This document shows, one piece after another, positions 5,393 to 25,245 of a stretch of 64,000 nt of DNA. Below the pieces are notes generated by a model. The model did no database searches. It was not told where the DNA came from and saw only the letters and a program-made list of their open reading frames with translations. The number at the start of each line of letters is the position of its first letter. Positions within the stretch are counted from its first letter, which is position 1. The position numbers and the translations under genes are program-made. This stretch comes from Oscillospiraceae bacterium (GTDB lineage Bacteria; Bacillota; Clostridia; Oscillospirales; Ruminococcaceae), in the NCBI GenBank assembly GCA_017427265.1, contig JAFRTG010000027.1, positions 186,001 through 250,000 of the forward strand. Reading direction: 5' to 3'.

Positions 5393-5451
5393 TAAGCTGT
5401 CGTTTCAGAGGGGTAAGTTGCATTGACAACCGCATGTTATCATGTTACAAT
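5393..5451 (+). promoter_or_regulatory. Promoter of the SGNH/dockerin gene with two 21-bp-phased direct repeats
   Basis: TAAGCTGT (5393-5400) and TAAGTTGC (5414-5421) start exactly 21 bp apart. The second ends one base before -35 TTGACA (5423-5428); a 17-bp spacer leads to TACAAT (5446-5451). The same arrangement with three repeats sits upstream of the gene at 14584, indicating a shared activator that binds one face of the DNA. Confidence 0.7.
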
Positions 5452-5503
5452 AAAATTATAAACATGTGTGAGCCTTCCGGCGAAGGGAAAGGAGATGTGT
5501 CCT

Positions 5504-8194
5504 ATGAAACGATTTTTCGCAGCTGTATTGGCTTTTGCTGCGGCAGCGCTTCCTGTGCCGATGCAGACAGCCGCAGAATCCGGTTCACGGATTGCAATGA
5601 AATTTGATCTCGGCGGACTCGGTACGGCAGACGGCTATATCGGCGTATCCGCAGCAGACGGCTATGATACTGCAAAAGGCTACGGCTTTGCAAATACGAA
5701 TGCGGTTGAAGATGTTGCGGCAGGCGGCACGGGCGCTTTGTCAGACGCAGTGCGCTTCAAATCGGATGTCCCGAATCATATTTTCAATGTGGATTTGCCC
5801 GCCGGTGTCTATCAAATCACGGTCACAACCGGTGATGTCCGTTCAACGACGATTTCCGCGGAGGGACTTCCGCAGCTGTTCTTCCTGACGGGCAGCAATG
5901 CGGCGGATACCTTCACGATTCCGGTCACGGACGGTCAGCTGAATATCTATGCCGGTTCCGGCGTGGGGACGGCGTTTTCGATCAGTGCGATTGAAATTGC
6001 GCAGACATCATCCGGCACGACAACCAAACCGACGGTCTGGGTCGGCGGCGATTCCACGGCTGCAAGCTGCTACAATGTCGCGGATGATGCCGTACACGGC
6101 TGGGGACAGTATCTCTGCAATTATGTGGATACAGATAAATATGATGTGCGGAATATTTCGGTCAGCGGTATCACATCCGGCGATCTGCGCGGTTATTCAT
6201 TTGAAACTGCCGAGCATTACGGCAAACCCGGTGATATTCTGCTGCTGCCGGTCGGCATCAATGACTATATCAAAGCGCATCAAAAGAATCCGGATGCGCC
6301 CGATGCAGGCGATTATATCACAAATATGACAGATATGATCCGGCGTGCAAAGGCCAAGGGAATGACCGTATATCCGGTGAGACAGCACGGGCAGGAAAGT
6401 GACCTTTACAAGTATCCGCTGCCGGAATCCCAATGGTTCGGCAATGTGCTGGACGGGCTTGCAGAGGCCGAACAGACCGGCGTGATTGATCTGTCCCGCC
6501 CGTGGCTGGAGCTCTGTCTGGAGAACCGGTATTATGCACAGGAGGATTATTATACCGCGGACGGACTGTATCTGAATGCGCTCGGTGCGGACAGAATGGC
6601 GGAAATGGTCAGTGCGCAGCTTTTCCCGCAGGCACTTCCCGCGGAGACCGGCGATGACGGCTATGATCTCGGCATCCCGACCGCGGTTTACGAAACGGAA
6701 ACCGCCGGCAAACCGGTCTCCAATCCGCACAAGGGCTTTGTGATGACCGCATATGCGCCGTATATGATCGACTCGACACAGGGTTATCAGTACGGCATCG
6801 GCGGCTCAGCGGGCAACCGCGCATGGGATGTGGTGACGATCGTCAGCGGCTCGCCGCACTGGAATGACCTCAATCCGGCAAAGGGTGTTTACAACTGGGG
6901 CGAAATTGACGAAATGCTCGACGCCTGCGAGGCGCACGGGCTGACCTACGGCATCCGCATTATGCCGTATTCGTCGTATCTTGCGGAGGATTTTGTGCCG
7001 CAGTGGATCTATGATGCCGGCGCACAGAAGTACACGGCGGAGTCGCGGGACAATCCGGGGGAGGAGATCGTATTCCCGAAGTGGGACGACCCGGTCTATT
7101 TGCAGGCGCACAAGGATTTTGTCAAAGCGCTGGCGGAAAAATATGACGGCGACCCCAGAGTGGAATTTATAGATGTCAGACCGTTCGGCGATTACGGGGA
7201 ATGGCATAATTCGTTTGCAATCGGCGACGAGAAATATATGCCGGCTCTGGATATCCAGAAGGATATGCTGGACTGCTATGCGGCGGCATTTCACAAGTCT
7301 CTGCTGGTACTGCCGTCCAATGCGCGGGGCGAAATCTACCGCTATGCGCTGTCAATCGGCATCACCAAGCGCGACGACGGTCTGATTTCGACGCCGAATG
7401 CGGAATGGAGCCTGCTGCCGGCCTACCGTGCGAATATGCCGGTCATCGGCGAAAATTACTGGCCGTATGCGTGGGCGCGCGACACGGTTCGGGAAAATGA
7501 GTATTCGCTTGTGAACTGGACGCAGAAGCGCTTCCGCGAGACGATTGAGATTCCGCACATGTCGGTTTTTGCGCTCGATCAGGACAGCCATTGCAGCTAT
7601 GAATTCTATCAGGAGCAGCAGGAAGTCATTGACGAAATGTGCAACAGACTGGGCTACAATTTTACCGTGACCTCTGCGGCGCGGTACGGAAACAAGCTCG
7701 CTGTAAAAATCAAGAATACCGGTCTTGCGCCTGCGTATTTCAATCTTGATCTGTGCGCGGAAATCACCGATGCCGAGGGCAGCAAACTTGCGGATTTCGG
7801 GAAACCGGTCAGGATCGAAGCCGGCAGCTTCCGCGAGAATTCTGAAAAGACATATCTGTTTGAATACGACGGCACACTGGATGCAAATGCAGATATCTGC
7901 CTTGCATTGTACGACAGTGACAATCCGCTCTGTCAGGGCAAAAATCCGACGGTGCGCTTTGACAACAAGAATACATTGTCCACGAACAGATTCAAGCTCG
8001 TGCAGACGGAACCGGTCGCCGGGGATATCAATGCGGACGGTGCGTTTGACACTGCGGATGCGGTTCTGCTGCAAAAATGGCTGCGTTCCGTGCCGGATAC
8101 CCATCCTGCAAACTGGAAGGCTGCCGATTTCTGTTCGGATAACCGGCTTGATGCACGCGATCTTTCCGGGCTGAAGCGTGCACTGCTGAAATAA
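5504..8194 (+). CDS. Secreted multidomain protein: beta-sandwich, SGNH hydrolase-like, DUF4832-like and dockerin
   Basis: The start at 5504 is set by GGAG at 5491-5494 and the Sec signal beginning MKRFFAAV; the frame extends upstream to a GTG at 5468. Order: signal (1-30), a binding-type beta domain as found before rhamnogalacturonan acetylesterases (about 32-170), an SGNH domain with GDST (Ser184), an Asn block (GIND) and D353, a TIM-barrel-like region opening NPHKGF (about residue 407) that resembles DUF4832/DUF4874 glycosidase-like proteins, a beta domain, and a C-terminal type I dockerin (about 841-895). In SGNH esterases the last block is DxxH; here it is DGLY (Tyr356), so the catalytic His appears to be absent. 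Pectin side-chain deacetylation is the nearest family role, but the activity is doubtful. Confidence 0.8.
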   Translation: MKRFFAAVLAFAAAALPVPMQTAAESGSRIAMKFDLGGLGTADGYIGVSAADGYDTAKGYGFANTNAVEDVAAGGTGALSDAVRFKSDVPNHIFNVDLPAGVYQITVTTGDVRSTTISAEGLPQLFFLTGSNAADTFTIPVTDGQLNIYAGSGVGTAFSISAIEIAQTSSGTTTKPTVWVGGDSTAASCYNVADDAVHGWGQYLCNYVDTDKYDVRNISVSGITSGDLRGYSFETAEHYGKPGDILLLPVGINDYIKAHQKNPDAPDAGDYITNMTDMIRRAKAKGMTVYPVRQHGQESDLYKYPLPESQWFGNVLDGLAEAEQTGVIDLSRPWLELCLENRYYAQEDYYTADGLYLNALGADRMAEMVSAQLFPQALPAETGDDGYDLGIPTAVYETETAGKPVSNPHKGFVMTAYAPYMIDSTQGYQYGIGGSAGNRAWDVVTIVSGSPHWNDLNPAKGVYNWGEIDEMLDACEAHGLTYGIRIMPYSSYLAEDFVPQWIYDAGAQKYTAESRDNPGEEIVFPKWDDPVYLQAHKDFVKALAEKYDGDPRVEFIDVRPFGDYGEWHNSFAIGDEKYMPALDIQKDMLDCYAAAFHKSLLVLPSNARGEIYRYALSIGITKRDDGLISTPNAEWSLLPAYRANMPVIGENYWPYAWARDTVRENEYSLVNWTQKRFRETIEIPHMSVFALDQDSHCSYEFYQEQQEVIDEMCNRLGYNFTVTSAARYGNKLAVKIKNTGLAPAYFNLDLCAEITDAEGSKLADFGKPVRIEAGSFRENSEKTYLFEYDGTLDANADICLALYDSDNPLCQGKNPTVRFDNKNTLSTNRFKLVQTEPVAGDINADGAFDTADAVLLQKWLRSVPDTHPANWKAADFCSDNRLDARDLSGLKRALLK

Positions 8195-8763: not shown

Positions 8764-11703
8764 TTATGCAAGCAGCAGGCGCTTCATCAGGGTGAGATCA
8801 AGTGCATTGATTATGCCGTCGCCGCTGCAGTCTGCCATCGGATAATTCGGGAGAATGCCGGAACCGAACAGATACTTCTGCAGGCACACAATGTCTGCGA
8901 TAGTAAGTTCGCCGTCGCCGTTTGCATCGCCCGGAACCTGAGAGCGGATTTCATCTGCGGGCTTTGCGTTCTCAAGCAGCTCTGCGGTTTTCCACGCGGT
9001 GCCGTCTGCAAAGACGATATTCTCAATGCCGTAGATCGAAACATAGCCGCTCATGTCACGGACATACAGCGTATAGTAATCGCCGAGCTTTTCCGCATAG
9101 ATTTCTTCCGGCTTGATATCCGCGCCGAATTTCAGCGTGTCATCGGAATCGCCCCAGATCGAATAATCGGTCAGCGAATCGTAGCCGTCGCCGTATTCAT
9201 AGATATAGGTATCGTCGCCGGTTGTGCCGCGGATAGAGTCGTTGCCCTTTCCGCAGTAGATGGTATCCGCATCGTCGGTGTCACGGAATACGTCATCGCC
9301 GTCCGTGCCGCGGAATACCTGCCGGTCAATCAGTTCCTGTACGCCGTTCCAGACTGTGCCGTCTGCGAAGCGGAATTCTTCGATCGGGAAGATGTTGGTA
9401 AAGCCGGATATCTGATTGCCGGGCATGGTAACGGAGCCGCCGACCTTATCAAAGCAGAGCGTGAAGGAATATTTGTCGAGCGAAAGCACAACCGTCACTT
9501 CGTCCGGATTGATGCCCTCACCGAAAATCACAACATCATGGCCGCCGTAAGGATAATAGCCTTGGCCCTTCTGCTCGTCGATGGTGTCGTCGCCGTCACC
9601 GGCATTGTAGTGGTAGGTATCATCACCGTTGCGGCCGCTGAGGTAATCATCGCCGGTGCCGCCGTAGAAGGTATCATTGCCGCCTGCGCCGTACAGTGTA
9701 TCATTACCGCCGTAACCGTATACCGTGACATCGCCGCTGTATTCCTTCCAGAACTGCGCGTCGCCGTCCACCAGCGCTGTGATTTCTTCATCTTCGTCGG
9801 TTCCGTACAGACTGCAGGTCAGCTCCAGCAGATTCTGCCGTGTCCACTTGGTGCCGTCCTCAAACCAGATCGCGTTGATCGGGAATACCGGGGAGGTGCC
9901 GGAATACATATTGCCCGGCAGCGTAACGGTTTCGCCGGTCTGCATGATATGCAGGACAAATGCATAGGTGCCATCCTTGGGTGAGAAGGTCACGCGCACT
10001 TCATCCGGTTTGATGCCCCCGCCGAGCCAGAGAACATCGTAGCCGTCATACGGATAGGTGCCTGTGCCGGTCGTTTCGTCAACCGTGTCGTTGCCGTCGC
10101 CGAGTGCGTAATAGAACAGATCATCCTGCGGGCCGCCGATCACGGTATCATCGCCCTTGCCGCCGTACAGAAAATCTGTATTGCCGCCGCCGGTCAGGAT
10201 ATCGTGGCCGTCCATGCCGTAGAGATAATGTGCTCCGCCGTCGTTGAAAATCGGTGCGAGACTGCCGGCCTTGATGGTATCATTTCCGTCATAGCCGAGA
10301 ATGTAGTTTGTATCGGACAGGCCGGTCAGCGTATCGTCGCCGCCCTTGCCGAAGATGCGGCACTTTTCGCGGTAGCCGGTATATTCGTCTGCTTCCTCCG
10401 TGCCGATGAAGTAATTGACGCGCCAGAGGATGTCCTCATAGTGCAGCACGGTGCCGTCCGCGAATTTGATGTTTTCAATGCGGTTGGTTGTGTTCGTTGA
10501 AAACTCGTCCGGGATATAGATATAGCGCTCGTTGACAAGATCATTGATGAACAGATCATCGCCCGAACGGATCAGCTCGATGTCATCGGGGGTGACGCCG
10601 TAATCAAAATAGATCGTGTCACCGAGTTCGTTCTTGCCCATGTTTCCGTTCTTTTCCTGAATGACAGCATATAGCGGCGTGCTGCGGTTTTCCGGTGAAG
10701 GTACGATATAGGTGTCATCGCCCGCATACAGATTGGCAATCAGTTCAGAAACATAATTAAATTTCTGTCCAACCGGAACACTGTCTCTGTTTTCCGGAAT
10801 ATCCGCTTCACCGAGCGTTGCAGTATCATCACTGACATTCCAGAGTCCGATTTCTGTCATGGAAAGTTCGATCTCCATCAGTTCCCGAAAGATCTCATTG
10901 TTTGCAAATGCGATGTTAGCGATTCCGCGGAGCGCAGCCGCCGTAATCATTGCATAGCCCTTGAACCAATCACCCAGATCAAATGTTTCATCCAGCTCAT
11001 CTGCCAGTTTTACACATACTTCAGCGACAGGAAACAAATCCATTCGTTCAGGCATCAGCGGAATAACCTGTTTGATCTCATCAGTGCCTTCATAGCGGAT
11101 GATGCCGAATGCACCGTCCAGAAAATAAAGACGGTATAAACCCGGATCAGATTCTGTCGGCTCAATTGCGCACATTCTTTCGAAATCTTCTTCCGGCATG
11201 GCACACTTGACTGCTTCATAAAGATACGGTGCAATGATATCGCGCGGAATCTGCTGAACATCAAGTGAGTAAATTTCCGAATTCAGTCTTGCCTCGAATT
11301 GGGATTTATCGGAATAATCGACTGGTTCAACTTCGCCCCTTTCAAGCTGTCCTGCATAATCCGCGATGATTGAAAAGGGGAGCCATGTTTCGCCGGCTTC
11401 CTCCGCGTAAAAAGCAGCCCAACGGTTTTCTGTTGCTTCGAGATCCGGCCGCTTGTTTTCCAGCTCGATGCATTCCTGCTGCCGTTCTTCCAGAATGCGG
11501 AGGCCTTCGGCAACACGCTCTTTGAGTGCTTCAAATTCCGCAGCCTGCTGTTCTTCCGGTGTTAATTCTGCAGGTTCTTCTGTTTCAGTTTCGGTGGTGT
11601 CTGTGATTTCTGTCTCTGTCAGGAGTTCTTCAGCAAAGGACGGGAGTGAACATGCTGATAACAATACTGCGCCTGACACAATGGTAGCAAATAGCCTCTT
11701 CAT
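8764..11703 (-). CDS. Large secreted RTX-like calcium-repeat protein with C-terminal dockerin
   Basis: The start at 11703 (979 residues) is preceded by AAAGGAATGG and gives a signal sequence MKRLFATIVSG with either an LSAC lipobox or a Sec cut after SFA; 72 upstream in-frame codons look like leader. A Glu/Thr-rich segment and a coiled-coil-like stretch follow (about 30-100), then an uncharacterised region to about 440. From about 450 to 850 come three clusters of RTX nonapeptide-like repeats (for example GGNDTLYGAGGNDTFYGG), each followed by a haemolysin-type calcium-binding-related segment with FADGTVW. The end is a complete type I dockerin (about 920-978, GDANGDGELTIAD and DCSGDGIINALD). 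No catalytic domain is recognised. Role is unknown: adhesin or substrate-binding component are possibilities. Confidence 0.85.
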   Translation of the reverse strand: MKRLFATIVSGAVLLSACSLPSFAEELLTETEITDTTETETEEPAELTPEEQQAAEFEALKERVAEGLRILEERQQECIELENKRPDLEATENRWAAFYAEEAGETWLPFSIIADYAGQLERGEVEPVDYSDKSQFEARLNSEIYSLDVQQIPRDIIAPYLYEAVKCAMPEEDFERMCAIEPTESDPGLYRLYFLDGAFGIIRYEGTDEIKQVIPLMPERMDLFPVAEVCVKLADELDETFDLGDWFKGYAMITAAALRGIANIAFANNEIFRELMEIELSMTEIGLWNVSDDTATLGEADIPENRDSVPVGQKFNYVSELIANLYAGDDTYIVPSPENRSTPLYAVIQEKNGNMGKNELGDTIYFDYGVTPDDIELIRSGDDLFINDLVNERYIYIPDEFSTNTTNRIENIKFADGTVLHYEDILWRVNYFIGTEEADEYTGYREKCRIFGKGGDDTLTGLSDTNYILGYDGNDTIKAGSLAPIFNDGGAHYLYGMDGHDILTGGGNTDFLYGGKGDDTVIGGPQDDLFYYALGDGNDTVDETTGTGTYPYDGYDVLWLGGGIKPDEVRVTFSPKDGTYAFVLHIMQTGETVTLPGNMYSGTSPVFPINAIWFEDGTKWTRQNLLELTCSLYGTDEDEEITALVDGDAQFWKEYSGDVTVYGYGGNDTLYGAGGNDTFYGGTGDDYLSGRNGDDTYHYNAGDGDDTIDEQKGQGYYPYGGHDVVIFGEGINPDEVTVVLSLDKYSFTLCFDKVGGSVTMPGNQISGFTNIFPIEEFRFADGTVWNGVQELIDRQVFRGTDGDDVFRDTDDADTIYCGKGNDSIRGTTGDDTYIYEYGDGYDSLTDYSIWGDSDDTLKFGADIKPEEIYAEKLGDYYTLYVRDMSGYVSIYGIENIVFADGTAWKTAELLENAKPADEIRSQVPGDANGDGELTIADIVCLQKYLFGSGILPNYPMADCSGDGIINALDLTLMKRLLLA

Positions 11704-11818
11704 GGGGTTCCATTCCTTTCTACTGTAGTTGGCTGCACAGGACGGATTTCTGATGCCGGGAAAACGGCATTCCGCGTATAGTATATTTGTGCAGAAATAT
11801 TGCTCCGCGGATAATGCT

Positions 11819-11847
11819 ATCATACCACACATATTTGTATATGTCAA
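11819..11847 (-). promoter_or_regulatory. Promoter of the RTX/dockerin gene
   Basis: Minus strand: TTGACA (11847-11842), 17-bp spacer, TATGAT (11824-11819). It leaves a leader of about 110 nt. Apart from this promoter and the terminator at 11979-12019, nothing else is seen in 11704-12044. Confidence 0.75.
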
Positions 11848-11978
11848 TAACTTTTTCTTGCGAAATGCAGCTGCGAGGCCAAAACTTTCATTTTGCGAAT
11901 ACGTACAATCGTTTGCCAATATCGGATTTTATTAGAAATAACTTGCTTTTGCAGCAGGAGAAGCGGTTCCTTTCTTCA

Positions 11979-14456: not shown

Positions 14457-14583
14457 TAAAAACAGCAGGTTCCGGATGTACTGCAGCACGCCGGAGCTGC
14501 CGCTGATTCCGTACATAAGAACAGACAGCAGAGGTATCCTTTCCTGCCTTTGCATATTTTATTACAGAACGGAGGAATATTCT

Positions 14584-16851
14584 ATGAAAACGAAAAAGCT
14601 GGCATGTCTGACGGCATGTACAATGCTTGCATCCGCTGTTTGGATGCTGCCTGCTCAGGCTGCCGGTACAGACGGCGGGGTGACGGATCCGCTGTTCGGC
14701 ACGCTGCCGGACTGGGTTCCGCATGATTTTGTATCCGCGATGCAGTTTCTAAACACACACGGAAAATCCTATGTATCCGACGGCATCATCTGTCTTGTGC
14801 GGCCGATGGCGCATTTCCGGACGGACGATTATCAGTATGAAATTGGCGGAAGCATGGCTTTGGTGAACACGCCGGCCAGCACCCAGCCGAAAATCTATGA
14901 GCTGGAAATCCCGGAAAAGCCGGATCCGGAAGATGCGGAAGCAGTCAAGGCCTATGAGGATTTCTGCGACAGTGTCGGAAACTATACGCATGATTACAGC
15001 GTGTTTGAACGCTATGCAGAGTGCAGGACACAGACCGCCTTGGAAGTGGAGTTGTTCCGCGTGGCGGACGGAGAGGATCTGATTGTGACCTGGCTGGAAA
15101 AAGAAGGCGGGGAGCTCAATAAAAAAGAGGAGTTCCGCTTTGGCAGTGCAGACGGCAATATGTATGAGACCGATATCTGGGGCTGGCTGCCGGACTGCGA
15201 TGCGGAATACAAGGCGTTTCTCGATCACTACGGCAGGGCGTCTGTTTATGACAATTACATTGTTTACTGCGCAGACGTGAACGGCAGCACAGGGGAAACG
15301 CTCAAAATGACGCAGGAGAGCGATGACGGCTGCGAAATCAAGCAGGTGCTCGAATCTGACTGCATACCGTTTCTGCTGAATTACGAGGACGGCACAGGTG
15401 TCTCTTCGGTCCTTCTGTACAAGCCTGTCAAGGACGGTACAGTCGAAGTCAAATGGACGATTGAGCGGGATATTCCCGGTGAGGAGCCGTTTCAGCAGAC
15501 TGTCGGACTGTATGAGGCAAAAGATGACTGTGCGTTCGTTTATGACAACTCAGAGCATAAGAAGCAGAGCATTGTCGTAACATTTCTCGATCAGGATACC
15601 GGTGAGATGATAGATACATCTTCAGGGCAGGATGTGCTGATGAGACAATCCGGAGTCGGTGATCCGATAGATCCGTATGTCACGAAAACATTCAAAATCA
15701 CATCAAATCCGTTCAGATTTGATGTAAGCAGTGACATTGTTCAGACAGATGACTACTTCTACTATCCGAAATCGAACGGCGGCTATTACAAAAAAACAAA
15801 ATTTGAGACCACAGAGTATGACGCATATCAGACCTGCATGACCTGTAAAATGAAGTGGAATCCGAGCGGCGATCTGAACGGTACGGATGATTTTACAACG
15901 GCAGATATTACCCTGTTGAAAAAGCTGCTTTCCGGACAGGATGTCAAAATCAAAGACTGGAACGCTGCTGATTTCTGCCGCGACAACACGCTAAATGCGG
16001 CAGACCTCACTATGATGAAGCGCGCATATATCCTGAAGCATACAAAGATTGAAAAGCCGGATACCGTCAGTGATGATTATAACTCTTTCTATGTCATCGG
16101 CGACAATCTGAAACTGTATGCGGGCCCCGGCGACGATTATACGGTGATTGATACATTTGAACTTGGCGCCTTTTTCTTTGAAAGAGGCTATAACAAGGGC
16201 AATGACGACTGGGTTTATGTCGGAAACGGCTGGATCAAGACAAAATGCGACAACAGCGATGCGCCGAATATCCGGTTTACTGATCTGGCGTATGACAAGC
16301 CTGTCATTTACCTGTATCCTGAGCAGGAGACGGATGTGCATGTGGAGCTGGAGCTGACGACATCCACTCTGGCGACAACCTATCCGCGTTACAATGACGG
16401 CTGGGACGTCACGGCTTATCCGGACGGCACGCTGCTGAACAAAGCGGACGGCACGCATCACAGATACCTCTTCTGGGACAGCACCGACAGCACCACCAGC
16501 TTTGATTTCTCCAAAGGATTCTGCGTTGCCGGCAGCGAGACCGAGCAGTTCCTCAAGGAGAAGCTCACGTACATGGGACTGACGGAAGAGGAGATGAACG
16601 AATTTATCGTGTACTGGCTTCCTCGCATGGAGCACAATGCGTATAATCTGATTGCATTCCAGGGCGATGCCTATACAGATTCCGCAAAGCTCAGCATCAC
16701 CCCGGCACCGGACAGCCTCTGCCGTGTCTTTATGGCGTATATTCCGCTGGATGAGGCCAGGGAGATCGAACCGCAGCAGCTGGAAACCTTTGAAAGAAAA
16801 GGCTTTTCAGTTGTGGAGTGGGGCGGCACCGAGATCGGCGCGCGCAAGTAA
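14584..16851 (+). CDS. Secreted protein with internal dockerin, SH3-like module and a conserved C-terminal domain of unknown function
   Basis: 755 residues starting MKTKKLACL at 14584 (GGAGG upstream; 36 in-frame codons before it are leader). A Sec signal (about 1-27) is followed by an uncharacterised 400-residue region, a type I dockerin in the middle (GDLNGTDDFTTAD from about 429, then DFCRDNTLNAAD), an SH3-like segment (LYAGPGDDYTVID, about 500-558) and a C-terminal domain beginning about 563 with KPVIYLYPE and ending VVEWGG. That last domain recurs in Firmicute secreted proteins as far as I recall, but I know no function. The arrangement suggests a cell-wall or polymer-binding protein carried on the scaffold. 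No catalytic residues are recognised. Confidence 0.8.
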   Translation: MKTKKLACLTACTMLASAVWMLPAQAAGTDGGVTDPLFGTLPDWVPHDFVSAMQFLNTHGKSYVSDGIICLVRPMAHFRTDDYQYEIGGSMALVNTPASTQPKIYELEIPEKPDPEDAEAVKAYEDFCDSVGNYTHDYSVFERYAECRTQTALEVELFRVADGEDLIVTWLEKEGGELNKKEEFRFGSADGNMYETDIWGWLPDCDAEYKAFLDHYGRASVYDNYIVYCADVNGSTGETLKMTQESDDGCEIKQVLESDCIPFLLNYEDGTGVSSVLLYKPVKDGTVEVKWTIERDIPGEEPFQQTVGLYEAKDDCAFVYDNSEHKKQSIVVTFLDQDTGEMIDTSSGQDVLMRQSGVGDPIDPYVTKTFKITSNPFRFDVSSDIVQTDDYFYYPKSNGGYYKKTKFETTEYDAYQTCMTCKMKWNPSGDLNGTDDFTTADITLLKKLLSGQDVKIKDWNAADFCRDNTLNAADLTMMKRAYILKHTKIEKPDTVSDDYNSFYVIGDNLKLYAGPGDDYTVIDTFELGAFFFERGYNKGNDDWVYVGNGWIKTKCDNSDAPNIRFTDLAYDKPVIYLYPEQETDVHVELELTTSTLATTYPRYNDGWDVTAYPDGTLLNKADGTHHRYLFWDSTDSTTSFDFSKGFCVAGSETEQFLKEKLTYMGLTEEEMNEFIVYWLPRMEHNAYNLIAFQGDAYTDSAKLSITPAPDSLCRVFMAYIPLDEAREIEPQQLETFERKGFSVVEWGGTEIGARK

Positions 16852-16859
16852 TCTGCATA

Positions 16860-17350
16860 CAAAAAACCGGTTCAGATCTTCGGATCCGAACCGGTTTTTC
16901 ATAATCTGAGCAAGCAATCTGATGACAGACTCTTCCGCCGCGGGTTTCAAAATCATAGAAATTAAAAGGAAGTCATCATCCCTTGCGGGATGCAGCGGAG
17001 AACGCTTGCGAAACAAATTGGTACAGGCCATCCTGTGACTGACATACTCCGGGCTTGTCAAATTAAAAGTTTGATTGTAAAAGGAAGTCACATCAGCAGC
17101 CGAAGCTGCTGTCCCGAAGCAACGCCTGAACCGTGTGATACAGGCTATCCAGCGGCACGCTGCGTGAATGGAGCACATGGCACTGCGAATGCAATAAAAG
17201 GAAGCCGCTGAAAAAACATGTTCAGCTCCATGCGCAACGCCTGTATCGCTGCAGCAGGCAATCTGACAGCCGGCAAAAACCTGTACTGAAGAAGTGACGA
17301 ACTTTTTCATAAAAGGAAGCTGTCATAACGTACAGGCATACGCCTGCTGC
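16860..17350 (-). ncRNA. Candidate structured regulatory RNA: four-unit tandem array with CUUCCUUUU motifs every 115-117 nt
   Basis: On the plus strand AAAAGGAAG occurs at 16964, 17079, 17196 and 17311 (spacing 115, 117, 115). Read on the minus strand each motif is CUUCCUUUU and follows a stem-loop: CATCCC/GGGATG capped by GCAA, CAGCAGC/GCTGCTG capped by TTCG, GCTGAA/TTCAGC, and a weaker CTGT/ACAG. UUCG and GNRA loops appear only in the minus sense, which sets the strand. Upstream of these stems most units also have a GCCTG...CAGGC hairpin (unit 4 imperfect). A promoter at 17357-17385 and the terminator at 16861-16900 frame a transcript of about 490 nt. It lies between convergent genes, so it is not a leader of either. 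The CUUCCUUUU segments could pair with AAAGGAA-type ribosome binding sites. No known RNA family is recognised. Confidence 0.6.
16861..16900. terminator. Strong bidirectional terminator closing the gene at 14584 and the minus-strand RNA array
   Basis: Fourteen-base stem 16865-16878 / 16883-16896 with a 4-nt loop, flanked by A6 on the left and T5 on the right, so it can stop transcription in both directions. Confidence 0.9.
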
Positions 17351-17356
17351 ATGTTC

Positions 17357-17385
17357 AGTATAACACGGATTCTGCCCGGTGTCAA
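17357..17385 (-). promoter_or_regulatory. Promoter of the tandem-array RNA, overlapping the stop codon of the TerD-like gene
   Basis: Minus strand: TTGACA (17385-17380), 17-bp spacer, TATACT (17362-17357). Start of transcription expected near 17350. The -35 box includes the stop codon of the gene at 17382. Confidence 0.7.
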
Positions 17386-19388
17386 GCCTCTAAGAAGAAA
17401 TTGTGGTCAATGAGGCTGACCTCTTTGTCCGAAGCGGGCTTGCCCATCACGAGAACGATGTCTGCATCGTCCGGAGAATCGGTGAGTGCGGCATTCTGTG
17501 ATGTAAACAGAATATCAAGATAATTGCGCAGGCTGAACGAATTGTTCCGCACGGCTTCCGCGTAATAGTTCCTCTGGTTGTTCTGTGTTCCGTCAAAGAC
17601 GAGCACGCGGTTCTGCACATCAATGAAGCCGTAATTGAGCATTTGGGATTTGCCTTTGAGATAATGCGTGAAGAAGCAGTTTTTCGGGTCGTAGAGCTTG
17701 ATTTCTGTTCCTGTTTTGGAAACGCCCATGATGCCGACGAAGCATTCGTCGATCTCCCCGAAGGTATTATAACCGGAAAAGAGATGAATGTTGAGCGTCA
17801 CGCAGCGGAGTGTTTCCTTTGCCTTGACCAGATCGAGATCCATATATTCCGCAGCGTCGGAGTGTGTGATATCGCCGCTGAAAACGAGTTCGCCGGATTT
17901 GAAGCAGGCATTCCAGCCGATATTGATTTTTTCACCGTTGATGCCGGTTGCAGCACCGTGCAGATCGACATCCACACGCTCGCTGTCGTTCCAGTAGACG
18001 AAGAAGCGGATGCAGGTGACATCCTCCGGGATTTTGTATGCAAGACCGGAGCGGATATAGCCGCCCTCGTCGGATTTGTCCGCGATGCGCAGCGCGGAGA
18101 GATCGAGGTCAAATTGGGGCATGTCAAGATAAATCTTTTTGCCGCGGAGCACGGTCTCATTTGCGGCAAGGCGCGTCTGCAGCAGATGCTGCACCATGAG
18201 CTTCAGCCGGACAGATTCCTGATAGCGCATCTCGTCCAGCGTATTGATTTCAGGGCGCGAGAAGAACGCCGCCAGACTTGTGAGCGTCTGCGGACTCAGT
18301 TCGGGCGCATGGGGCAGGAGCTTGTCAAAGAGATCCTTGATCGCATAACCGTTCCGCAGCAGATAGGTCAGATGCCGCAGCATCATGCCGGGACGCTCCG
18401 CGTAGGCGTCAAGCGCTTCGGGCGCCTTGCGGCTGACCATTTCCTTGACCTCGGATTCCCATGAGCGCAGTTTGCCTGCCCTGAGATCTGCGACGGCTTT
18501 TGCGTAGTCTGATTTGCGAGAATATTCGTTGAAATCAATGAACTTGAGCATCAGCAGCGTGCGTTCTCTCTTTTTGCCGGAGAGGATGAGGTTCGAGCGG
18601 AAATCCCACAGCGGGAAACTCTCCAGCAGCTTGACGGTCAGGCGCTTCTGTGCAGTCCGGAGATGAAAATGTGATCTTGTCAGCGTATAGTCAAGGCATT
18701 TCCAGACATCGCCTGTATGCTGGCAGACGGCGCGGAGGAAAGCGGCCTTTTCAGCGGAAGAAAGTGCTTCATCCGCAAAAACCGTATGGAACACAATCAG
18801 CAGATTCTGCTTGAAGGTCACGCGCACACCGGCCATTTCCTCTGCGGTGAGATGCTTTGCGCATTCCGCAATCATCATGCACTCTTTATTGTTCATGCGC
18901 TCGGTTTTGGTGAGGATTCTGCGGAACGGCGCTGTATATTTTTCGTCACTGCCAATCAGTGCGATTGTTTTTGCTGCAAGCAGTTTATCGTCAGGCTCTG
19001 TTTTTTCGGTCTCCTGCATTTCGGGGAGCCAGCCTCTGGTGACGGACATGCCGGTGATCTCCTCGATGCCGTAGGTCGAAAGATAATGAATCATCTGATG
19101 AAACCGGAACACGGCTTCATCCATTTCCATGACCTGAGACGGGAAATCCGGATACATCGGCTTTGCCTTGACGTCGCCGAGATAGGATCGGACGCGCGCA
19201 GCAAAATCGGTCAGGTCGGCAGATTTTGCGAGTGTGACAATATCCTTCGGGGCAAGCGTATAGCCGAGCGCCAGCAGCTCTTCATTTGTTGTCATGGCCC
19301 GCAGGATATTTTCTTCGCAGAGCGGAACCGCATTCATGGAAACGGAAACGAGCCGGAGCTCGGAAAAAAGCAGTTGATCGTAAAGCAT
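17382..19388 (-). CDS. TerD-like domain protein, 668 residues
   Basis: AGGAGGGCACGTT precedes the ATG at 19388. The N-terminal 400 residues are alpha-helical with no recognised domain. The C-terminal part (about 420-640) matches TerD-type calcium-binding stress proteins: VDVDLHGAATGINGEKI, then a segment ending HSGD-like FSGDITHSDAAEYMDLDL, then FGEIDECFVGIMG. The architecture recalls the MXAN_6230/SCO0854 family, although no RING motif is visible here. TerD proteins are cytoplasmic and linked to tellurite, phage and oxidant resistance, but their biochemical role is unsettled. It is divergently transcribed from a small beta-grasp-like protein and a DUF4132 giant, suggesting a common stress or conflict module. 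Confidence 0.7.
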   Translation of the reverse strand: MLYDQLLFSELRLVSVSMNAVPLCEENILRAMTTNEELLALGYTLAPKDIVTLAKSADLTDFAARVRSYLGDVKAKPMYPDFPSQVMEMDEAVFRFHQMIHYLSTYGIEEITGMSVTRGWLPEMQETEKTEPDDKLLAAKTIALIGSDEKYTAPFRRILTKTERMNNKECMMIAECAKHLTAEEMAGVRVTFKQNLLIVFHTVFADEALSSAEKAAFLRAVCQHTGDVWKCLDYTLTRSHFHLRTAQKRLTVKLLESFPLWDFRSNLILSGKKRERTLLMLKFIDFNEYSRKSDYAKAVADLRAGKLRSWESEVKEMVSRKAPEALDAYAERPGMMLRHLTYLLRNGYAIKDLFDKLLPHAPELSPQTLTSLAAFFSRPEINTLDEMRYQESVRLKLMVQHLLQTRLAANETVLRGKKIYLDMPQFDLDLSALRIADKSDEGGYIRSGLAYKIPEDVTCIRFFVYWNDSERVDVDLHGAATGINGEKINIGWNACFKSGELVFSGDITHSDAAEYMDLDLVKAKETLRCVTLNIHLFSGYNTFGEIDECFVGIMGVSKTGTEIKLYDPKNCFFTHYLKGKSQMLNYGFIDVQNRVLVFDGTQNNQRNYYAEAVRNNSFSLRNYLDILFTSQNAALTDSPDDADIVLVMGKPASDKEVSLIDHNFFLEA

Positions 19389-19639: not shown

Positions 19640-20053
19640 ATGGAAATACTGGTCAATATGAAGCAGCTCGGTGCAAAACGCGACAAGATCAAGGCAGTGC
19701 CGTTTGTGCTTGCCGGTGAGCCGAAAACTGTGCGGGAGCTGATTGTATCTGCTGTGCAGACCTGTACGGAAGCCTTCCGGCAGCGCGGCGCGGCAGGGGA
19801 GCAGCCGCTCACAGAGGAGCAGATGCGTCAGATGGAGGAAATCGGCAAAATTGCATTCGGCGTGCACTGGGGCAATGAGGAAATTGATCCGGAGCAGGCC
19901 AAGGCTGATGCGCTGCAGGCCTATGAGGACGGTCTTGTCCGCATTTTCATCGGAGAGGAGCAGCTTGGTGCACCGGATAACAGCATCCGCCTGCACGAGC
20001 ATGATACCGTAACATTTCTGCGCCTGACCTTTCTGGCAGGCAGAATGTGGTAA
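19640..20053 (+). CDS. Small conserved protein, possibly ubiquitin-like beta-grasp, partner of the DUF4132 protein
   Basis: 137 residues, starting MEILVNMKQLG after GAGGGTGAT. I do not recognise a named family. The N-terminal strand (MEILVNM), TVRELI helix start, and the C-terminal strand pair (IRLHEHDTVTFLRLTFLAG) look like a ubiquitin or ThiS-type beta-grasp with a helical insertion, but this is inference. The stop is 14 bp upstream of the start of the next gene, so the two are translated from one message. It may act as an adaptor or regulator of the DUF4132 protein. Confidence 0.6.
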   Translation: MEILVNMKQLGAKRDKIKAVPFVLAGEPKTVRELIVSAVQTCTEAFRQRGAAGEQPLTEEQMRQMEEIGKIAFGVHWGNEEIDPEQAKADALQAYEDGLVRIFIGEEQLGAPDNSIRLHEHDTVTFLRLTFLAGRMW

Positions 20054-20067
20054 AGGAGGAACAGGAT

Positions 20068-23000
20068 ATGCCGCTGAGCAAGGAAGAAACCGCAAGACTG
20101 AAACCGCTGAGCGATGCGTTTTATGCGGAGACGGAAAGACGGAAAAAGGAGGCAATCGGCAAGCTGAACCCCGAGCAGAAGGATTTTGCGGAGAAGCATT
20201 TCTATTACGGCGATTCGGTCTGCGATATTGCGCTGGGAAAAAAGCTGTATCAGGCGCTGAAAAACGGCGTCCGCCCGTCTGAATATCTGAAAAAGAATAT
20301 GGAGTGGCTGTTCACATCCGGTTTCCTGTATGAGCGTTACCGTGACGTGCTTTATGATGCTGCTGACCGCATGACGGAGCGTCAGTATTCAGCGGGCTGG
20401 TACCGCCGCTCGCTCCGGACGAAGGATTACAGTGCCTATACGGCCGGGCTGGTCGAACTGATCCGCGCATTTCATTCGGATCTGTTCCCGGATCTTTCGG
20501 CTGCAGATGTGCTGCTGAAGCGCTGCCCGGAAGGGTTTCTTGCATACAGCGCGGTCACCAATTATCCGCGGAAGGGATATCTGCCGGAAACGGTTGCTTA
20601 CGCGATTGACCGCGGCGATTCTGAGGTAATCGGCGCCGTCACCGATATCATCAACGGCGAGGGCGAATGGGATCTGAACACGGAGATCATCCGCGCCGTG
20701 ATGCGCTGTCATGATCCGGCGCTGCATCAGCAGCTCTGCAAATTACTGAAAGCAGCCAAGCTGCAGGAGGGTCTGCGGCAGGCAGTCTGTGAAAACGCCG
20801 ATGCCGGCAATGCAGATGCGTTCCGCGCAATCCTGCGGACGATCACAGAGGAAAAGATGCTGCGCTATTCCTCTGTCAAGCGTGCAATCGGCACATGGAC
20901 AGGTCTGCTTTCGCCGGACGAAAAGGATGTTGACCGCATCAGCGAGAAAGTGCTCGGCATGATGAATGCGGTGCTGGATTCCGAGGAAACAAGGCAGACT
21001 TATCTGCACTCTGAGGACAGCATGGCGATTTTCATGGCACTCTGGGGCTACGGCTTCTATGAGGTGCAGGATGCCTGCAAGCAGATCCGGATGATTTCGG
21101 AATCCGGCACGCATCATCAGCTGCTGTCCGCAGGTTATTTCCTCAACAATATTGAAATGAAAACCTTTGCGCATCAGATTGCCAAAACGGTGATTGCGTC
21201 GCATCACACCGAGCCGGATATCATGGCGGTCATGCTGCCGCATTTCATGTCAGACTGGAGCAGCGCTGTTCCGGGGCGCTATCACCGGAGGTTCAAATCC
21301 TATGCGGCAGCGCCGGACTGGTCTGCGCCGGCATACTATAAAGACAACCGGGAAGCGGCGCAGTATTATGATCTGCTGCAGGAACTGCTGAAAGCGGTTC
21401 CGAAGAAGGAGCTTGTCTTTTCGCCGTGTATCTTCCCGTGGTACAGCGCAGTGCTGACACGCGGCTGCATTGCTGCGCGGCTTGCCGTGACGGCATCTCT
21501 GCTCGGTGACCCGGACAGGACAGATGCATTTTTGCCGCTGATTCCGCATGTATCTCCGGATGACCGTTCACAGGTGCTGCGCGTGCTGCTGTACCGGCAG
21601 CAGACGGATGCACAGCGTGCGGCACTGGCAGAGGCGCTCTGCGACAAGGAAACGATCACCCGCGAGACCGCTTTTGCGATCATTTCGGATACGGAGATTA
21701 CGCCGGCGCAGTACCGCATCATGGAGGAGCTGCTGAAATATAAGGCGGCAGATGCGCGTTCAAATCTGATTAAGCTGCTGCTGCGGCAGGACGACGCAGC
21801 GCTGCTGCAAAGCATTGAGCGGCTGCTCGGTGATAAAAAGGAAGAAAAGCGCACGGCCGCGCTTGACCTCATGCTGCAGGTGACTGCAGATGAAAACCGG
21901 CAGACGCTTGCGGCACAGTGCCGCAGTCTTGCAGCCAAGGCGGAGCTTCCCTCTGACAAGGAGCAGATTCTGCTGCAGCAGATCATCGGGGAAGGGGAGA
22001 CAGAGCAGGCCGCCGCTGCAAATCCGCTGTTCACCGAAGCGGATGTCTACGAGCCCGCAGAGCCGGATGCCGCGTATCTCGAAGAATGCCTTGCGGTGTA
22101 CCGGCGGTATTATCCGGATGCGGCGCCGCTTCCCGGCACAGAGAAGAAAACTGCGCTGAAATCCGCGATGGAACGGCTTGCGAAGCATTTCCCGGCCGCC
22201 GCGAAGAAGCCGGCGGGAGACTGCGCGACATATACGGAAGCAGTCCGGCTGCTGCATGATCTCGACGACCGGCTCGTGCAGATGCGCACGCGCGAATTTA
22301 CGCGGAACGGCGAGGCGTTCACGATCGACTGCCGGTCGTATGACTTCTATGTAATCTCGGAGGACGGCAAGCGGCATGTGCCGTTTTATGAGGACTGGGA
22401 AAAGTGGTATGCAGAAAACGGCTGCACACCGGAAATCATTGCGCGGATGCAGACGGCTTTGTACAGCGGCCATCAGAAGCCGCAGTATGCAGACCCGTTT
22501 TTCGGCAGCGGCTTTTCCAAATCCTTGACGGTGACATATCCGGAGCAGATGCGCTCGATTCTGCGCAGTCTGGCAGAGATTCCCGCCGATGATGCCCGGA
22601 TGGTCGCGTATGCGGTCGGCTGCAGATTCATGCAGGAATATCCGAAGGAGGAGCAGCTTTTCCTGGCGGAACCGGAACAAAAACGCTATGTGCATTTTCT
22701 GGACAGCATGATGTTCTACGACTGGATCAAAGCGCTGGACAGCGGTCTCGGTCCGCATGACAAGGAAGAGGTTGATCTGCGGCTGCAGCTGGAGCGCACC
22801 GTGCGTGCAGATGAACACTACGAGCCGTACAGCCGTTCCTACAGCACCTATGTGCGCTATCTGTTCGTCGGACTGGAGGAACGCATCCGCATGGTATACC
22901 GCGGCAGTATGCCGGAAGCAGCGATGCTCCGGGAGGTATTCCGGGATGACGAAACGCTCGGCAAGGGACTGTTCCTGCTGTCCTCTGCAAACGGCTTTGT

Positions 23001-25245
23001 GCGGGATGCGGGCGTTCAGCGTGCCAAGCGCGGCGGCAATTCTTACTGGCAGGCGAACTGGGCAAGGAACGCCTGCAATGATCTGGCCGGCAGGGCGCGC
23101 GGCTATCAGGAGCCGTTTACGGATGAAGAGCAAAAGCTGCTCTGCTATGCAGCGGATTTGTTTGACCGCATCATCGCGGTGATTCTGCCGGTCGAGCTGC
23201 ACCGCGGCGATACGCCGACGAAGTATTCTTCCTGTATCCGCAGGACGCAGCGCATTTACGGGCTGGACAACTTCCTTGCGATTCTGCAGGCACTCGGCAA
23301 GGATACGCTGGAACGTGCAACCTATTATCATTCTGATTCCAAGAAGAGCAATCTGAGCTATCTGCTCTCGGTCTGTATTCCGGCGGAGGGGGATCTTGAT
23401 CCCGCTGTGTTCACGGAGAAGCTGAAACAGACCGATATCACAGAGCAGCGTTTGATTGAAGCGGCACTCTACGCGCCGGAATGGCTGCCGGTGATTGCGG
23501 CGCATCTTGGCTGGGAAGGCTTTGTCTCCGGCTGCTACTATTTCATGGCGCACATGAATGAGCGGTTTGATGACCGCCGCCGTGCGATGATTGCAAAATA
23601 CACCCCGTTGACCGAGGAGGAGCTGAACCTCGGTGCATTTGATATCAACTGGTTCCGCTCGGCGTATGAAACGCTCGGCACAAAGCATTTCAAGCAGATT
23701 TATGACGCGGCAAAGTACATCTCCGACGGTGCAAAGCATACCCGCGCGCAGAAATATGCCGATGCCGTTCAGGGCAAGCTCGATCCGGAAAAGACTGCGG
23801 CACAGATCGCGGACAAGCGCAACAAGGATCTGATTATGGCGTATGCGCTGATTCCCTTCAAGGACGAGGACGCGCTCTGCAAGCGGTATCTGCGCATTGT
23901 GGAGTACCGGAAGGAAGCGAAGAAATTCGGTGCGCAGCGCAGTGCCAGTGAGCGCAAGGCTGCGGATATCGCACTGCAGAATCTGGCGATGAACGCAGGG
24001 TACGCAGATGTGATGCGTCTGACGCTGCGCATGGAGACCAAGCTGCTGGACGACAGCCAAGCGTATTTCGACGGGCTGCAGATCGACGATCTTTTTGTCC
24101 GCCTGGATGTCAGTGCGGACGGCGATGTCAGCATCGGCGTCGAAAAGAACGGTAAGGCGCTGAAAGCAATTCCTGCGAAATACAAAAAGCATCCGGATAT
24201 CGCGGCCATGACCGAGACGAAAAAGAAGCTGACAGAGCAGTACCGCCGCACGCGCGAGATGCTGGAACAGGCGATGGAAGAGGAGACGCTCTGGCGTGCT
24301 GATGAGCTGCAGACGCTGATGCAGAATCCGGTCGCGGCGCCGGTGATCGGGCGGCTGGTGTTTGCGCATGACGGGAAATTCGGCTTCCTGCGCGGCAATG
24401 CGCTCGTACCGGCAGAGGGTGAGCCACTGACGCTGCAGCCGGACGATCAGCTGACGGCTGCGCATCCGTTTGCAATGCGGAAGGCCGGTGTCTGGGCGGA
24501 TTATCAGGCATACTGCTTCCGGGAGAAGCTGGTGCAGCCGTTCAAGCAGGTGTTCCGGGAGCTCTATGTCAAAACGCCGGATGAAGCGGAAAACACGAAG
24601 TCGATGCGCTATGCGGGCAATCAGATTCAGCCGGCCAAGACGCTCGGCTGCCTGAAAACCCGCCGCTGGATTGCAGATGTCGAGGACGGACTGCAAAAGG
24701 TGTTCTACCGGGAGAATCTGGTCGTGACGATCTATGCACTGGCAGACTGGTTTTCTCCGGCGGATATCGAATCCCCGACGCTGGAATATGTCGCGTTTTA
24801 TGACCGAAAAACCGGAAAGCCGCGGCAGATTTCCGAGGTGCCGGATGTGCTGTTCTCCGAGGTCATGCGCGATGTCGATATGGCAGTGAGCGTTGCCCAT
24901 GCCGGCGGCGTCGATCCGGAAACGAGTCATTCGACAGTCGAGATGCGTGCAGCGCTGCTGGAACTGACCAAGCCGCTGCTGAAACTGGAAAACGTCGAAA
25001 TCAGCGGACATCACGCGCATATTCACGGCACGCGCGCGGATTATACGGTTCACCTCGGCAGCGGTGTTGTGCATCTCAAGGGCGGCACGATGCTGAATAT
25101 TCTGCCGGTGCATTCGCAGCACAGAGGACGCATCTTCCTGCCGTTTGCCGATGACGATCCCAAGACGGCAGAGATTCTCAGCAAGATTCTGCTGCTCTCC
25201 GAGGACAGCAAAATTCAGGATCCGTCCATTCTGGCGCAGCTGTGA
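20068..25245 (+). CDS. Giant MolR-like protein (DUF4132 / DUF5724 / DUF7737 type)
   Basis: 1,725 residues; the ATG at 20068 follows AAAGGAGG at 8-nt spacing, preferred over a GTG at 20047 that overlaps the upstream gene. No signal peptide or membrane helix is evident. Most of the length is helical, HEAT-like repeats. The C-terminal region carries the family signature: AHAGGVDPETSHSTVEMRA, then HLGSGVVHLKGG, then HSQHRGRIFLPFADDDPKT and KILLLSED, typical of E. coli MolR/YehI relatives. Function of the family is not established; relatives sit with MoxR AAA and vWA genes or with stress proteins. Here the partners are the small gene upstream and the divergent TerD-like gene. A cytoplasmic complex or stress system is inferred. 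Confidence 0.85.
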   Translation: MPLSKEETARLKPLSDAFYAETERRKKEAIGKLNPEQKDFAEKHFYYGDSVCDIALGKKLYQALKNGVRPSEYLKKNMEWLFTSGFLYERYRDVLYDAADRMTERQYSAGWYRRSLRTKDYSAYTAGLVELIRAFHSDLFPDLSAADVLLKRCPEGFLAYSAVTNYPRKGYLPETVAYAIDRGDSEVIGAVTDIINGEGEWDLNTEIIRAVMRCHDPALHQQLCKLLKAAKLQEGLRQAVCENADAGNADAFRAILRTITEEKMLRYSSVKRAIGTWTGLLSPDEKDVDRISEKVLGMMNAVLDSEETRQTYLHSEDSMAIFMALWGYGFYEVQDACKQIRMISESGTHHQLLSAGYFLNNIEMKTFAHQIAKTVIASHHTEPDIMAVMLPHFMSDWSSAVPGRYHRRFKSYAAAPDWSAPAYYKDNREAAQYYDLLQELLKAVPKKELVFSPCIFPWYSAVLTRGCIAARLAVTASLLGDPDRTDAFLPLIPHVSPDDRSQVLRVLLYRQQTDAQRAALAEALCDKETITRETAFAIISDTEITPAQYRIMEELLKYKAADARSNLIKLLLRQDDAALLQSIERLLGDKKEEKRTAALDLMLQVTADENRQTLAAQCRSLAAKAELPSDKEQILLQQIIGEGETEQAAAANPLFTEADVYEPAEPDAAYLEECLAVYRRYYPDAAPLPGTEKKTALKSAMERLAKHFPAAAKKPAGDCATYTEAVRLLHDLDDRLVQMRTREFTRNGEAFTIDCRSYDFYVISEDGKRHVPFYEDWEKWYAENGCTPEIIARMQTALYSGHQKPQYADPFFGSGFSKSLTVTYPEQMRSILRSLAEIPADDARMVAYAVGCRFMQEYPKEEQLFLAEPEQKRYVHFLDSMMFYDWIKALDSGLGPHDKEEVDLRLQLERTVRADEHYEPYSRSYSTYVRYLFVGLEERIRMVYRGSMPEAAMLREVFRDDETLGKGLFLLSSANGFVRDAGVQRAKRGGNSYWQANWARNACNDLAGRARGYQEPFTDEEQKLLCYAADLFDRIIAVILPVELHRGDTPTKYSSCIRRTQRIYGLDNFLAILQALGKDTLERATYYHSDSKKSNLSYLLSVCIPAEGDLDPAVFTEKLKQTDITEQRLIEAALYAPEWLPVIAAHLGWEGFVSGCYYFMAHMNERFDDRRRAMIAKYTPLTEEELNLGAFDINWFRSAYETLGTKHFKQIYDAAKYISDGAKHTRAQKYADAVQGKLDPEKTAAQIADKRNKDLIMAYALIPFKDEDALCKRYLRIVEYRKEAKKFGAQRSASERKAADIALQNLAMNAGYADVMRLTLRMETKLLDDSQAYFDGLQIDDLFVRLDVSADGDVSIGVEKNGKALKAIPAKYKKHPDIAAMTETKKKLTEQYRRTREMLEQAMEEETLWRADELQTLMQNPVAAPVIGRLVFAHDGKFGFLRGNALVPAEGEPLTLQPDDQLTAAHPFAMRKAGVWADYQAYCFREKLVQPFKQVFRELYVKTPDEAENTKSMRYAGNQIQPAKTLGCLKTRRWIADVEDGLQKVFYRENLVVTIYALADWFSPADIESPTLEYVAFYDRKTGKPRQISEVPDVLFSEVMRDVDMAVSVAHAGGVDPETSHSTVEMRAALLELTKPLLKLENVEISGHHAHIHGTRADYTVHLGSGVVHLKGGTMLNILPVHSQHRGRIFLPFADDDPKTAEILSKILLLSEDSKIQDPSILAQL

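Follow-up and report, generated by a model that had tools for sequence, protein, structure and literature searches.

A tandem pseudoknotted RNA next to a TROVE-like/TerD protein gene in Ruminococcus relatives: a probable Y-RNA-like partner

The array and its borders

The DNA analysed, referred to as the window, is a stretch of 64,000 nt from an Oscillospiraceae bacterium (contig JAFRTG010000027.1, positions 186,001 to 250,000). It contains an array of four structured RNA units, which follows on the minus strand the gene of a protein predicted to combine a TROVE-like and a TerD domain. The array was recognised by the sequence AAAAGGAAG, found on the plus strand at 16964, 17079, 17196 and 17311, i.e. 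at intervals of 115, 117 and 115 nt; its minus-strand form is CUUCCUUUU, and the four copies are flanked by a promoter on one side and a terminator on the other. When 16860-17385 was shuffled 1000 times with dinucleotides preserved, the motif occurred 0.009 times on average and at most once, against the four copies observed. A fifth copy of AAAAGGAAG, at 21836, falls within a 1732-aa open reading frame (ORF) located at 20047-25245.

A preliminary description of this DNA had given the coordinates of the four copies exactly, and the TTGACA-17-TATACT promoter and the terminator which it placed at the borders of the array, as well as hairpins capped by UUCG and GCAA, were all found. The arms of the terminator hairpin (16862-16878 and 16883-16899) are 94% complementary. 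The array does lie between convergent genes, as described; yet it is also co-directional with the minus-strand gene at 17382-19388, over whose stop codon the -35 box is placed. Beyond the array, its own strand carries no gene in the window before the convergent one. Promoter-like boxes were seen by eye 3' of the homologous gene in relatives as well. Folding energy is strong on both strands (z-scores of -5.9 for the minus and -6.2 for the plus strand), so that the strand cannot be chosen from energy alone; it was assigned as minus because of the promoter, the terminator and the orientation which the motif has towards the gene in related loci.

Each unit, about 100-115 nt long, consists of an outer stem P1 (CAGGC/GCCUG and variants, by side-by-side reading of relatives), an inner stem P3 which reaches the motif, the last nucleotide of its 5' strand being the C of CUUCC, and a helix P2. 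Since P2 has its 5' strand between P1 and P3 but its 3' strand inside P3, P2 and P3 cross, forming a pseudoknot. P2 of unit B1 can also be drawn in another register of 8 bp, which has a slightly higher score; in unit B2 the UUCG hairpin is found between P2 and P3. The features are collected in Table 1, where the scores of the units are not independent of the covariance model R1 described below, all four having gone into its building.

Table 1. Coordinates of the RNA array, its signals and the predicted partner gene within the window
Feature	Position	Strand	Remarks
Predicted partner gene, 668-aa protein	17382..19388	-	from co-occurrence and predicted structure
-35 box TTGACA of RNA promoter	17380..17385	-	overlaps stop codon of upstream gene
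-10 box TATACT	17357..17362	-	17-nt gap to -35 box
Unit A (first)	17252..17349	-	model R1 63.4 bits, E 9.5e-14
Unit A helices	P1 17342-17349/17252-17259; P2 17330-17337/17279-17286; P3 17319-17324/17265-17270	-	
CUUCCUUUU in unit A	17311..17319	-	C closes P3, then UUCCUUUU
Unit B1 (second)	17138..17246	-	model R1 65.2 bits, E 3.4e-14
Unit B1 helices	P1 17239-17246/17138-17145; P2 17225-17231/17168-17174; P3 17204-17209/17151-17156	-	
CUUCCUUUU in unit B1	17196..17204	-	
Unit B2 (third)	17021..17131	-	model R1 70.8 bits, E 1.4e-15
Unit B2 helices	P1 17124-17128/17024-17028; P2 17113-17121/17045-17053; P3 17087-17092/17034-17039	-	
CUUCCUUUU in unit B2	17079..17087	-	
Unit C (fourth)	16908..17011	-	model R1 60.2 bits, E 6e-13; GCAA hairpin
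Unit C helices	P1 17004-17009/16910-16915; P2 16992-16999/16934-16941; P3 16972-16977/16921-16926	-	
CUUCCUUUU in unit C	16964..16972	-	
Intrinsic terminator of RNA	16861..16900	-	palindromic; may also serve plus-strand gene

Covariation of the stems and pairing with one gene

The first relatives came from a DNA search of 100 related genomes. It returned eight further loci, all from the genus of the window, in which these features recur; two of the eight are identical in sequence. L008 (G027:C24), identical to L007, was left out of the alignment, and one near-identical unit (L004:1811-1919) was omitted from the 26 available, leaving 25 units in the first alignment (A1). Among these, P3 is paired in 24 or 25 units at all six positions, and in every unit a P2 helix with 5 or more pairs is found. 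Model R1 comprises P1 and P3. Its genome matches, after the lowest one (L009, plus strand, E 0.016, lacking P3) had been left out, were aligned to give 66 units from 24 loci (alignment A3). Here 96.7% of the P1 and P3 cells are paired, two-sided changes occur at 12 of the 14 pairs, and the covariation score was reached by none of 500 shuffles; the counts lean towards this structure, because the alignment was fitted to the P1/P3 model. P2 is not part of the model: over the 66 units its strands score 19.2 with their own partners versus 12.0 with those of other units, a result reached by none of 10,000 permutations.

The free-standing tandem structured RNA proposed earlier for the minus strand is thus supported by stems which covary among relatives, and comparison of the sequences indicates that it is a real family and a new structured RNA. 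No Rfam family was matched by the window RNA at the gathering score. At relaxed thresholds only low-scoring hits at chance level were obtained in the window, four of five to the terminator hairpin and otherwise to stems, and none in seven relatives. The possibility, raised in the same description, of a decaying repeat found at random sites does not agree with the genome itself, where R1 detects at E<=0.01 only the four units of the window. Drum RNA, a tandem RNA of clostridia, was considered and set aside, since apart from these chance-level hits no Rfam model matched at the thresholds applied, although Rfam includes Drum as RF02958 (as given in the available text of PMC7657543).

Across the family the motif reads N-U-(C/A)-C-UUUU-(A). 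In all 66 units U2, C4 and UUUU are invariant, while position 3 is C in 50 units and A in 16; this conservation is partly built in, because the units were found by a model containing the motif.

The RNA was detected in 10 of 30 genomes of the genus, in 12 of 396 genomes of the family (6 of 126 genera) and in 1 of 394 genomes of the order, namely its own, the last search having used stricter filters by which weak matches were lost. A pattern scan of named genomes, which required the CUUCC form, gave 13 hits: 4 without a model match were set aside, and the other 9 belong to Ruminococcus, Oscillospiraceae, Clostridiales or Clostridia assemblies, although the named records L089, L091, L093 and L094 are not independent of the counted genomes G028, G021, G025 and G026. 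The gene was found in 11 of the 30 genomes of the genus, including all 10 with the RNA, and in 14 of 392 genomes of the family, a sample drawn separately from the one used for the RNA, including all 12 with the RNA. Of the two genomes of the family sample with the gene and no RNA match, G014 carries a single unit 5' of the gene (model R2, E 3.7e-9); in G388 no unit was found within 5.5 kb.

In 10 of the 12 RNA-containing genomes of the family sample the gene is immediately followed, on its own strand, by an array. The array is located 5' of the gene in G301, and on a different contig in G347, where the 3' end of the gene is 240 nt from the contig end. By eye, both G014 and G301 show a promoter followed by one unit, a terminator and then the start codon of the gene. 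Eight of nine named RNA loci encode the protein within the fetched piece, one of them partially, the exception being L096; both RNA and gene are present on L107, a contig from a viral collection. Additional units or arrays were found on contigs without the gene, or in pieces without it (L104, L050, L101, L105, L096), and the RNA can therefore outnumber the copies of the protein. Structure and genetic pairing with the gene are as secure as computation allows.

The N-terminal part of the partner protein is helical and is predicted to be a TROVE-like domain, with structure matches spanning residues 150-412; a TerD domain follows at about 452-613, also by structure match, so that the predicted structure resembles TROVE (Ro60) and then TerD. 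NF041916 is matched over the TerD part (E 4e-17, 61.7 bits), below the NCBIfam cut-off of 600. Pfam revealed no vWA domain, the C-terminal part matching TerD instead, and no endoribonuclease of the ToxN/CptN/TenpN type at E<=10 in 9 members; PADLOC matched none of 3 proteins. These family lists are based on alignments, and a family not listed is not thereby excluded. TerD has been proposed as a sensor of nucleotide-derived signals in stress systems (available text of PMC7159879 and PMC7824862).

Divergent from the TROVE-like/TerD gene, the plus strand at 19640-25245 carries a 137-aa ORF and the 1732-aa DUF5724/DUF4132/DUF7737 protein. In the flanks of 16 loci, most of them short, no match was found for either as a conserved partner. 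Dockerin domains are contained in two proteins of the window, an RTX-repeat protein (8764-11919, minus strand) and a large protein (14476-16851, plus strand), and suggest that the host is a cellulosome-type Ruminococcus relative.

Motif units near distant homologues

Searches with tblastn detected weak relatives of the protein in Xanthomonas phage XacN1, in another phage and in a Streptomyces protein of the MXAN_6230/SCO0854 family, and searches starting from these led to more phages and plasmids; the XacN1 protein found no relative among viral contigs. All six distinct records from the first searches were fetched, and nine more on protein match alone. Motif units are located near the gene in 12 of the 15 loci (phages, Streptomyces, Variovorax, Niallia), where the RNA is simpler and the motif is mostly U(C/A)CUUCU, directly after the 5' strand of P3 and near the same protein family. 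The Ruminococcus model gave no good match on XacN1 (best 13.9 bits, outside the units); the phage units were therefore found by reading sequence and motif, and then tested by partner swapping.

U(C/A)CUU(U/C)U occurs on the gene strand of the adjoining noncoding DNA three times in XacN1, four times in a human faecal phage, four in Rhodobacter phage RcXuper, three in Rhodococcus phage Weasels2, three in the uncultured phage LR745208 and once in Streptomyces. These counts were reached by 7, 0, 0, 3, 0 and 88 of 1000 shuffles, respectively, of flank stretches picked after the motifs were known. Swapping was applied to 19 units (18 from phages, one from Streptomyces), with positions and right limits set by eye. 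The strands of P3 score 17.0 with their own partners versus 10.7 when swapped, and those of P1 17.1 versus 11.5, in both cases with none of 20,000 permutations reaching the value. Unit 3 of Weasels2 (TACTTCG; unit 2 is TACTTCC) was entered one base off; P3 is doubtful in RcXuper units 1 and 3, and P1 in several units (XacN1 1, Weasels2 3, RcXuper 1 and 3, faecal phage 1 and 4).

In six of the nine loci fetched on protein match, motif units that include a P3 were found in the vicinity of the gene. These loci belong to Kitasatospora, Niallia, Ruegeria phage RpAliso, Lactobacillus phage LpeD, S. halstedii, which is close to the Streptomyces found first, and Variovorax, where a small annotated ORF lies between the gene and the units. 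None was found near the gene in Deinococcus, phage WXIN and phage SCTP-2. A motif unit is present upstream in each of the three Streptomycetaceae members of NF041916 inspected. Like the fold, its covariation and the co-occurrence, the motif units near distant homologues are established here by computation.

Matches to the tRNA-like core of YrlA (RF02553) were detected inside four motif units of three phages, all below the gathering score (26.4-42.3 bits against 69): one unit of RcXuper (40.7 bits, E 1.7e-5 over 68 kb), one of Weasels2 (26.4 bits, E 0.22 over 68 kb and 0.0013 over a 401-nt stretch) and two of RpAliso (42.3 and 34.7 bits). One more weak hit to YrlA falls on a phage tRNA that is not part of a unit. 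Of three canonical TROVE/vWA genes taken as a control, two are preceded by a YrlA match which is likewise below the gathering score (39.9 and 39.8 bits). The canonical control loci contain no motif array, and one has a single TACTTTT. The window and seven relatives gave no match to RF02553 at its gathering score, and no tRNA-like domain was found in the window RNA.

Other RNA-related features were seen around the distant homologues. Permuted tmRNA genes (RF04321) lie upstream of the motif units in RcXuper (L115, 1788-2090) and RpAliso (L124, 707-928), and in the human faecal phage (L114, 808-1108) a tmRNA gene within a tRNA cluster is located just upstream of the units. In XacN1 a tRNA-like stretch ending in CACCA was seen by eye between units 1 and 2 (L112, about 5430-5510); neither ARAGORN nor Rfam called it. 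Two RNA-repair genes were noted: rtcR is located by the Variovorax homologue (L120, 1-914), and RtcB a few kb from that of Weasels2 (L116, 7902-8023). An annotated PemK-type mRNA interferase gene is close to the LpeD homologue (L125, 4634-4972), and an RNB-domain ribonuclease and a VWA-domain protein are encoded beside that of Streptomyces (L113, 8389-13050).

Interpretation and comparison with known systems

In canonical Ro60 the TROVE domain is followed by a vWA domain, and Y RNAs gate and tether the protein. Ro60 is a human autoantigen, and together with Y RNAs matters in lupus and Sjogren's disease. The entity conserved here, a motif inside a fold travelling with one protein, fits a candidate protein-binding module. 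The free-standing RNA of about 490 nt, made up of four tandem pseudoknotted units, is in our judgement probably a Y-RNA-like partner of the adjacent TROVE-like/TerD protein, and predicted structure and phage relatives make the Y-RNA-like role likely. The protein would consist of an RNA-binding TROVE toroid, like that of Ro60, and of TerD in the usual place of vWA. By analogy with Ro60, each unit may form one docking site, composed of P1, P3 and the N-U-(C/A)-C-UUUU-A strand leaving P3; one RNA would then gather several copies of the protein and serve them as a store, an inhibitor or a scaffold, comparable to the gating and tethering of Ro60 by Y RNAs. The loop after the motif, being variable and the site of the YrlA-like tRNA mimic in some phages, is probably an effector-facing module. 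That the array is transcribed and bound by the protein, the stoichiometry of the complex, and a part played in the quality control of RNA or in its repair under stress are inferred.

With somewhat less assurance, we favour the view that these pairs constitute a widespread and so far unrecognised class of Ro-like ribonucleoproteins. TROVE-like/TerD proteins of gut Firmicutes, Actinobacteria, Proteobacteria, Bacilli and large phages would each be encoded with one to several RNA units sharing P1, P3 and the U(C/A)CUU(U/C)U strand; tandem units would allow one RNA to assemble several proteins, some of the phage units would contain a tRNA mimic, in place of which a pseudoknot would have evolved in the branch of Ruminococcus.

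Some results weigh against the Y-RNA-like interpretation. By sequence the partner protein does not match PF05731, nor did hhalign match it to TROVE as represented by three canonical sequences (a fourth TROVE match was unused). P2 is less clear in single units: letter shuffles reach its score in more than 5% of cases for 15 of the 66, and the best-scoring partner is the unit's own in 20 of the 66.

Four other explanations were weighed. The RNA may have some other function in trans, for instance by sequestering another protein or as a scaffold induced by stress, and be merely linked to the gene; some arrays do lie away from it, and binding is only predicted, but the strict co-occurrence in the sampled genomes and the units near distant homologues make this unlikely. 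An antitoxin RNA neutralising an adjacent toxin, as in type III systems (ToxI, CptI), would account for tandem pseudoknots (here computed) next to one protein gene, and the order seen by eye in G301 and G014 reproduces the layout of repeats, terminator and toxin (available text of PMC5086642). However, the protein looks like TROVE plus TerD and not, by Pfam, like a ToxN-type nuclease, the arrays are mostly 3' of the gene, and the units are diverged and about 100-115 nt long, against repeats of 34-36 nt in three examples of the ToxIN family (same text); this explanation is therefore quite improbable. A riboswitch-like or leader element acting in cis through tandem aptamers would suit a pseudoknotted tandem array followed by a terminator, as well as the one unit and terminator ahead of the gene in G301 and G014. 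It is very unlikely, since the array of the window, like that of most relatives read, is equipped with a promoter of its own, positioned 3' of the gene and closed by a terminator, and in the window no gene is found downstream on its strand before the convergent one. The earlier suggestion that CUUCCUUUU blocks AAAGGAA-type ribosome binding sites of many mRNAs is, as the conserved function, probably wrong and hardly credible, though incidental pairing with mRNAs may occur: the four pyrimidine tracts are complementary to such sites, but this pairing is not conserved, because the UACUUUU units (A at position 3 in 16 of 66) cannot pair with AAGGAA, while UUUU and the P3 context are invariant, and distant relatives of the same protein-RNA pair carry U(C/A)CUUCU.

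If the Y-RNA-like interpretation is true, an orphan RNA gains a likely protein partner, and a sister class with a different second domain would separate the role of the TROVE fold from that of vWA. A modular RNA with countable units would reveal the purpose of a multi-site Y RNA, and systems in phages and gut bacteria would make Y RNA function testable. According to the available text of PMC7790460, the Deinococcus particle, in which Ro60 is tethered to PNPase by a Y RNA, was as of 2020 the only functionally studied bacterial Ro60-Y RNA particle, and Salmonella has an rsr-yrlBA-rtcBA operon; the Ro60 toroid holds single-stranded and misfolded RNA (available text of PMC11277228). Among the matches listed in open-licence PubMed Central, neither such an RNA nor a TROVE-TerD/RNA pair is described.

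Compared with known proteins, the partner resembles Ro60/TROVE (PF05731; PDB 9l5y, 9kop, 2nvo, 1yvp) in the predicted fold of residues 150-412, and differs in the lack of a Pfam or profile match and of a detected vWA domain. With the RING-TerD proteins MXAN_6230/SCO0854 (NF041916) it is homologous over the TerD part, whereas no RING is named in the window protein and the score is below the family cut-off. As to the RNA, the closest comparison is YrlA (RF02553) with Ro60/Rsr. The window RNA differs in being tandem and pseudoknotted, without a tRNA-like domain or an Rfam match, its family has the conserved U(C/A)CUU(U/C)U next to P3, and the partner protein has TerD instead of vWA and does not match TROVE models by sequence. 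In both cases, a noncoding RNA is encoded beside the gene of a protein that is Ro-like (here by predicted structure), a closed stem is followed by a variable domain beyond, and the phage relatives hold the YrlA core within the unit.
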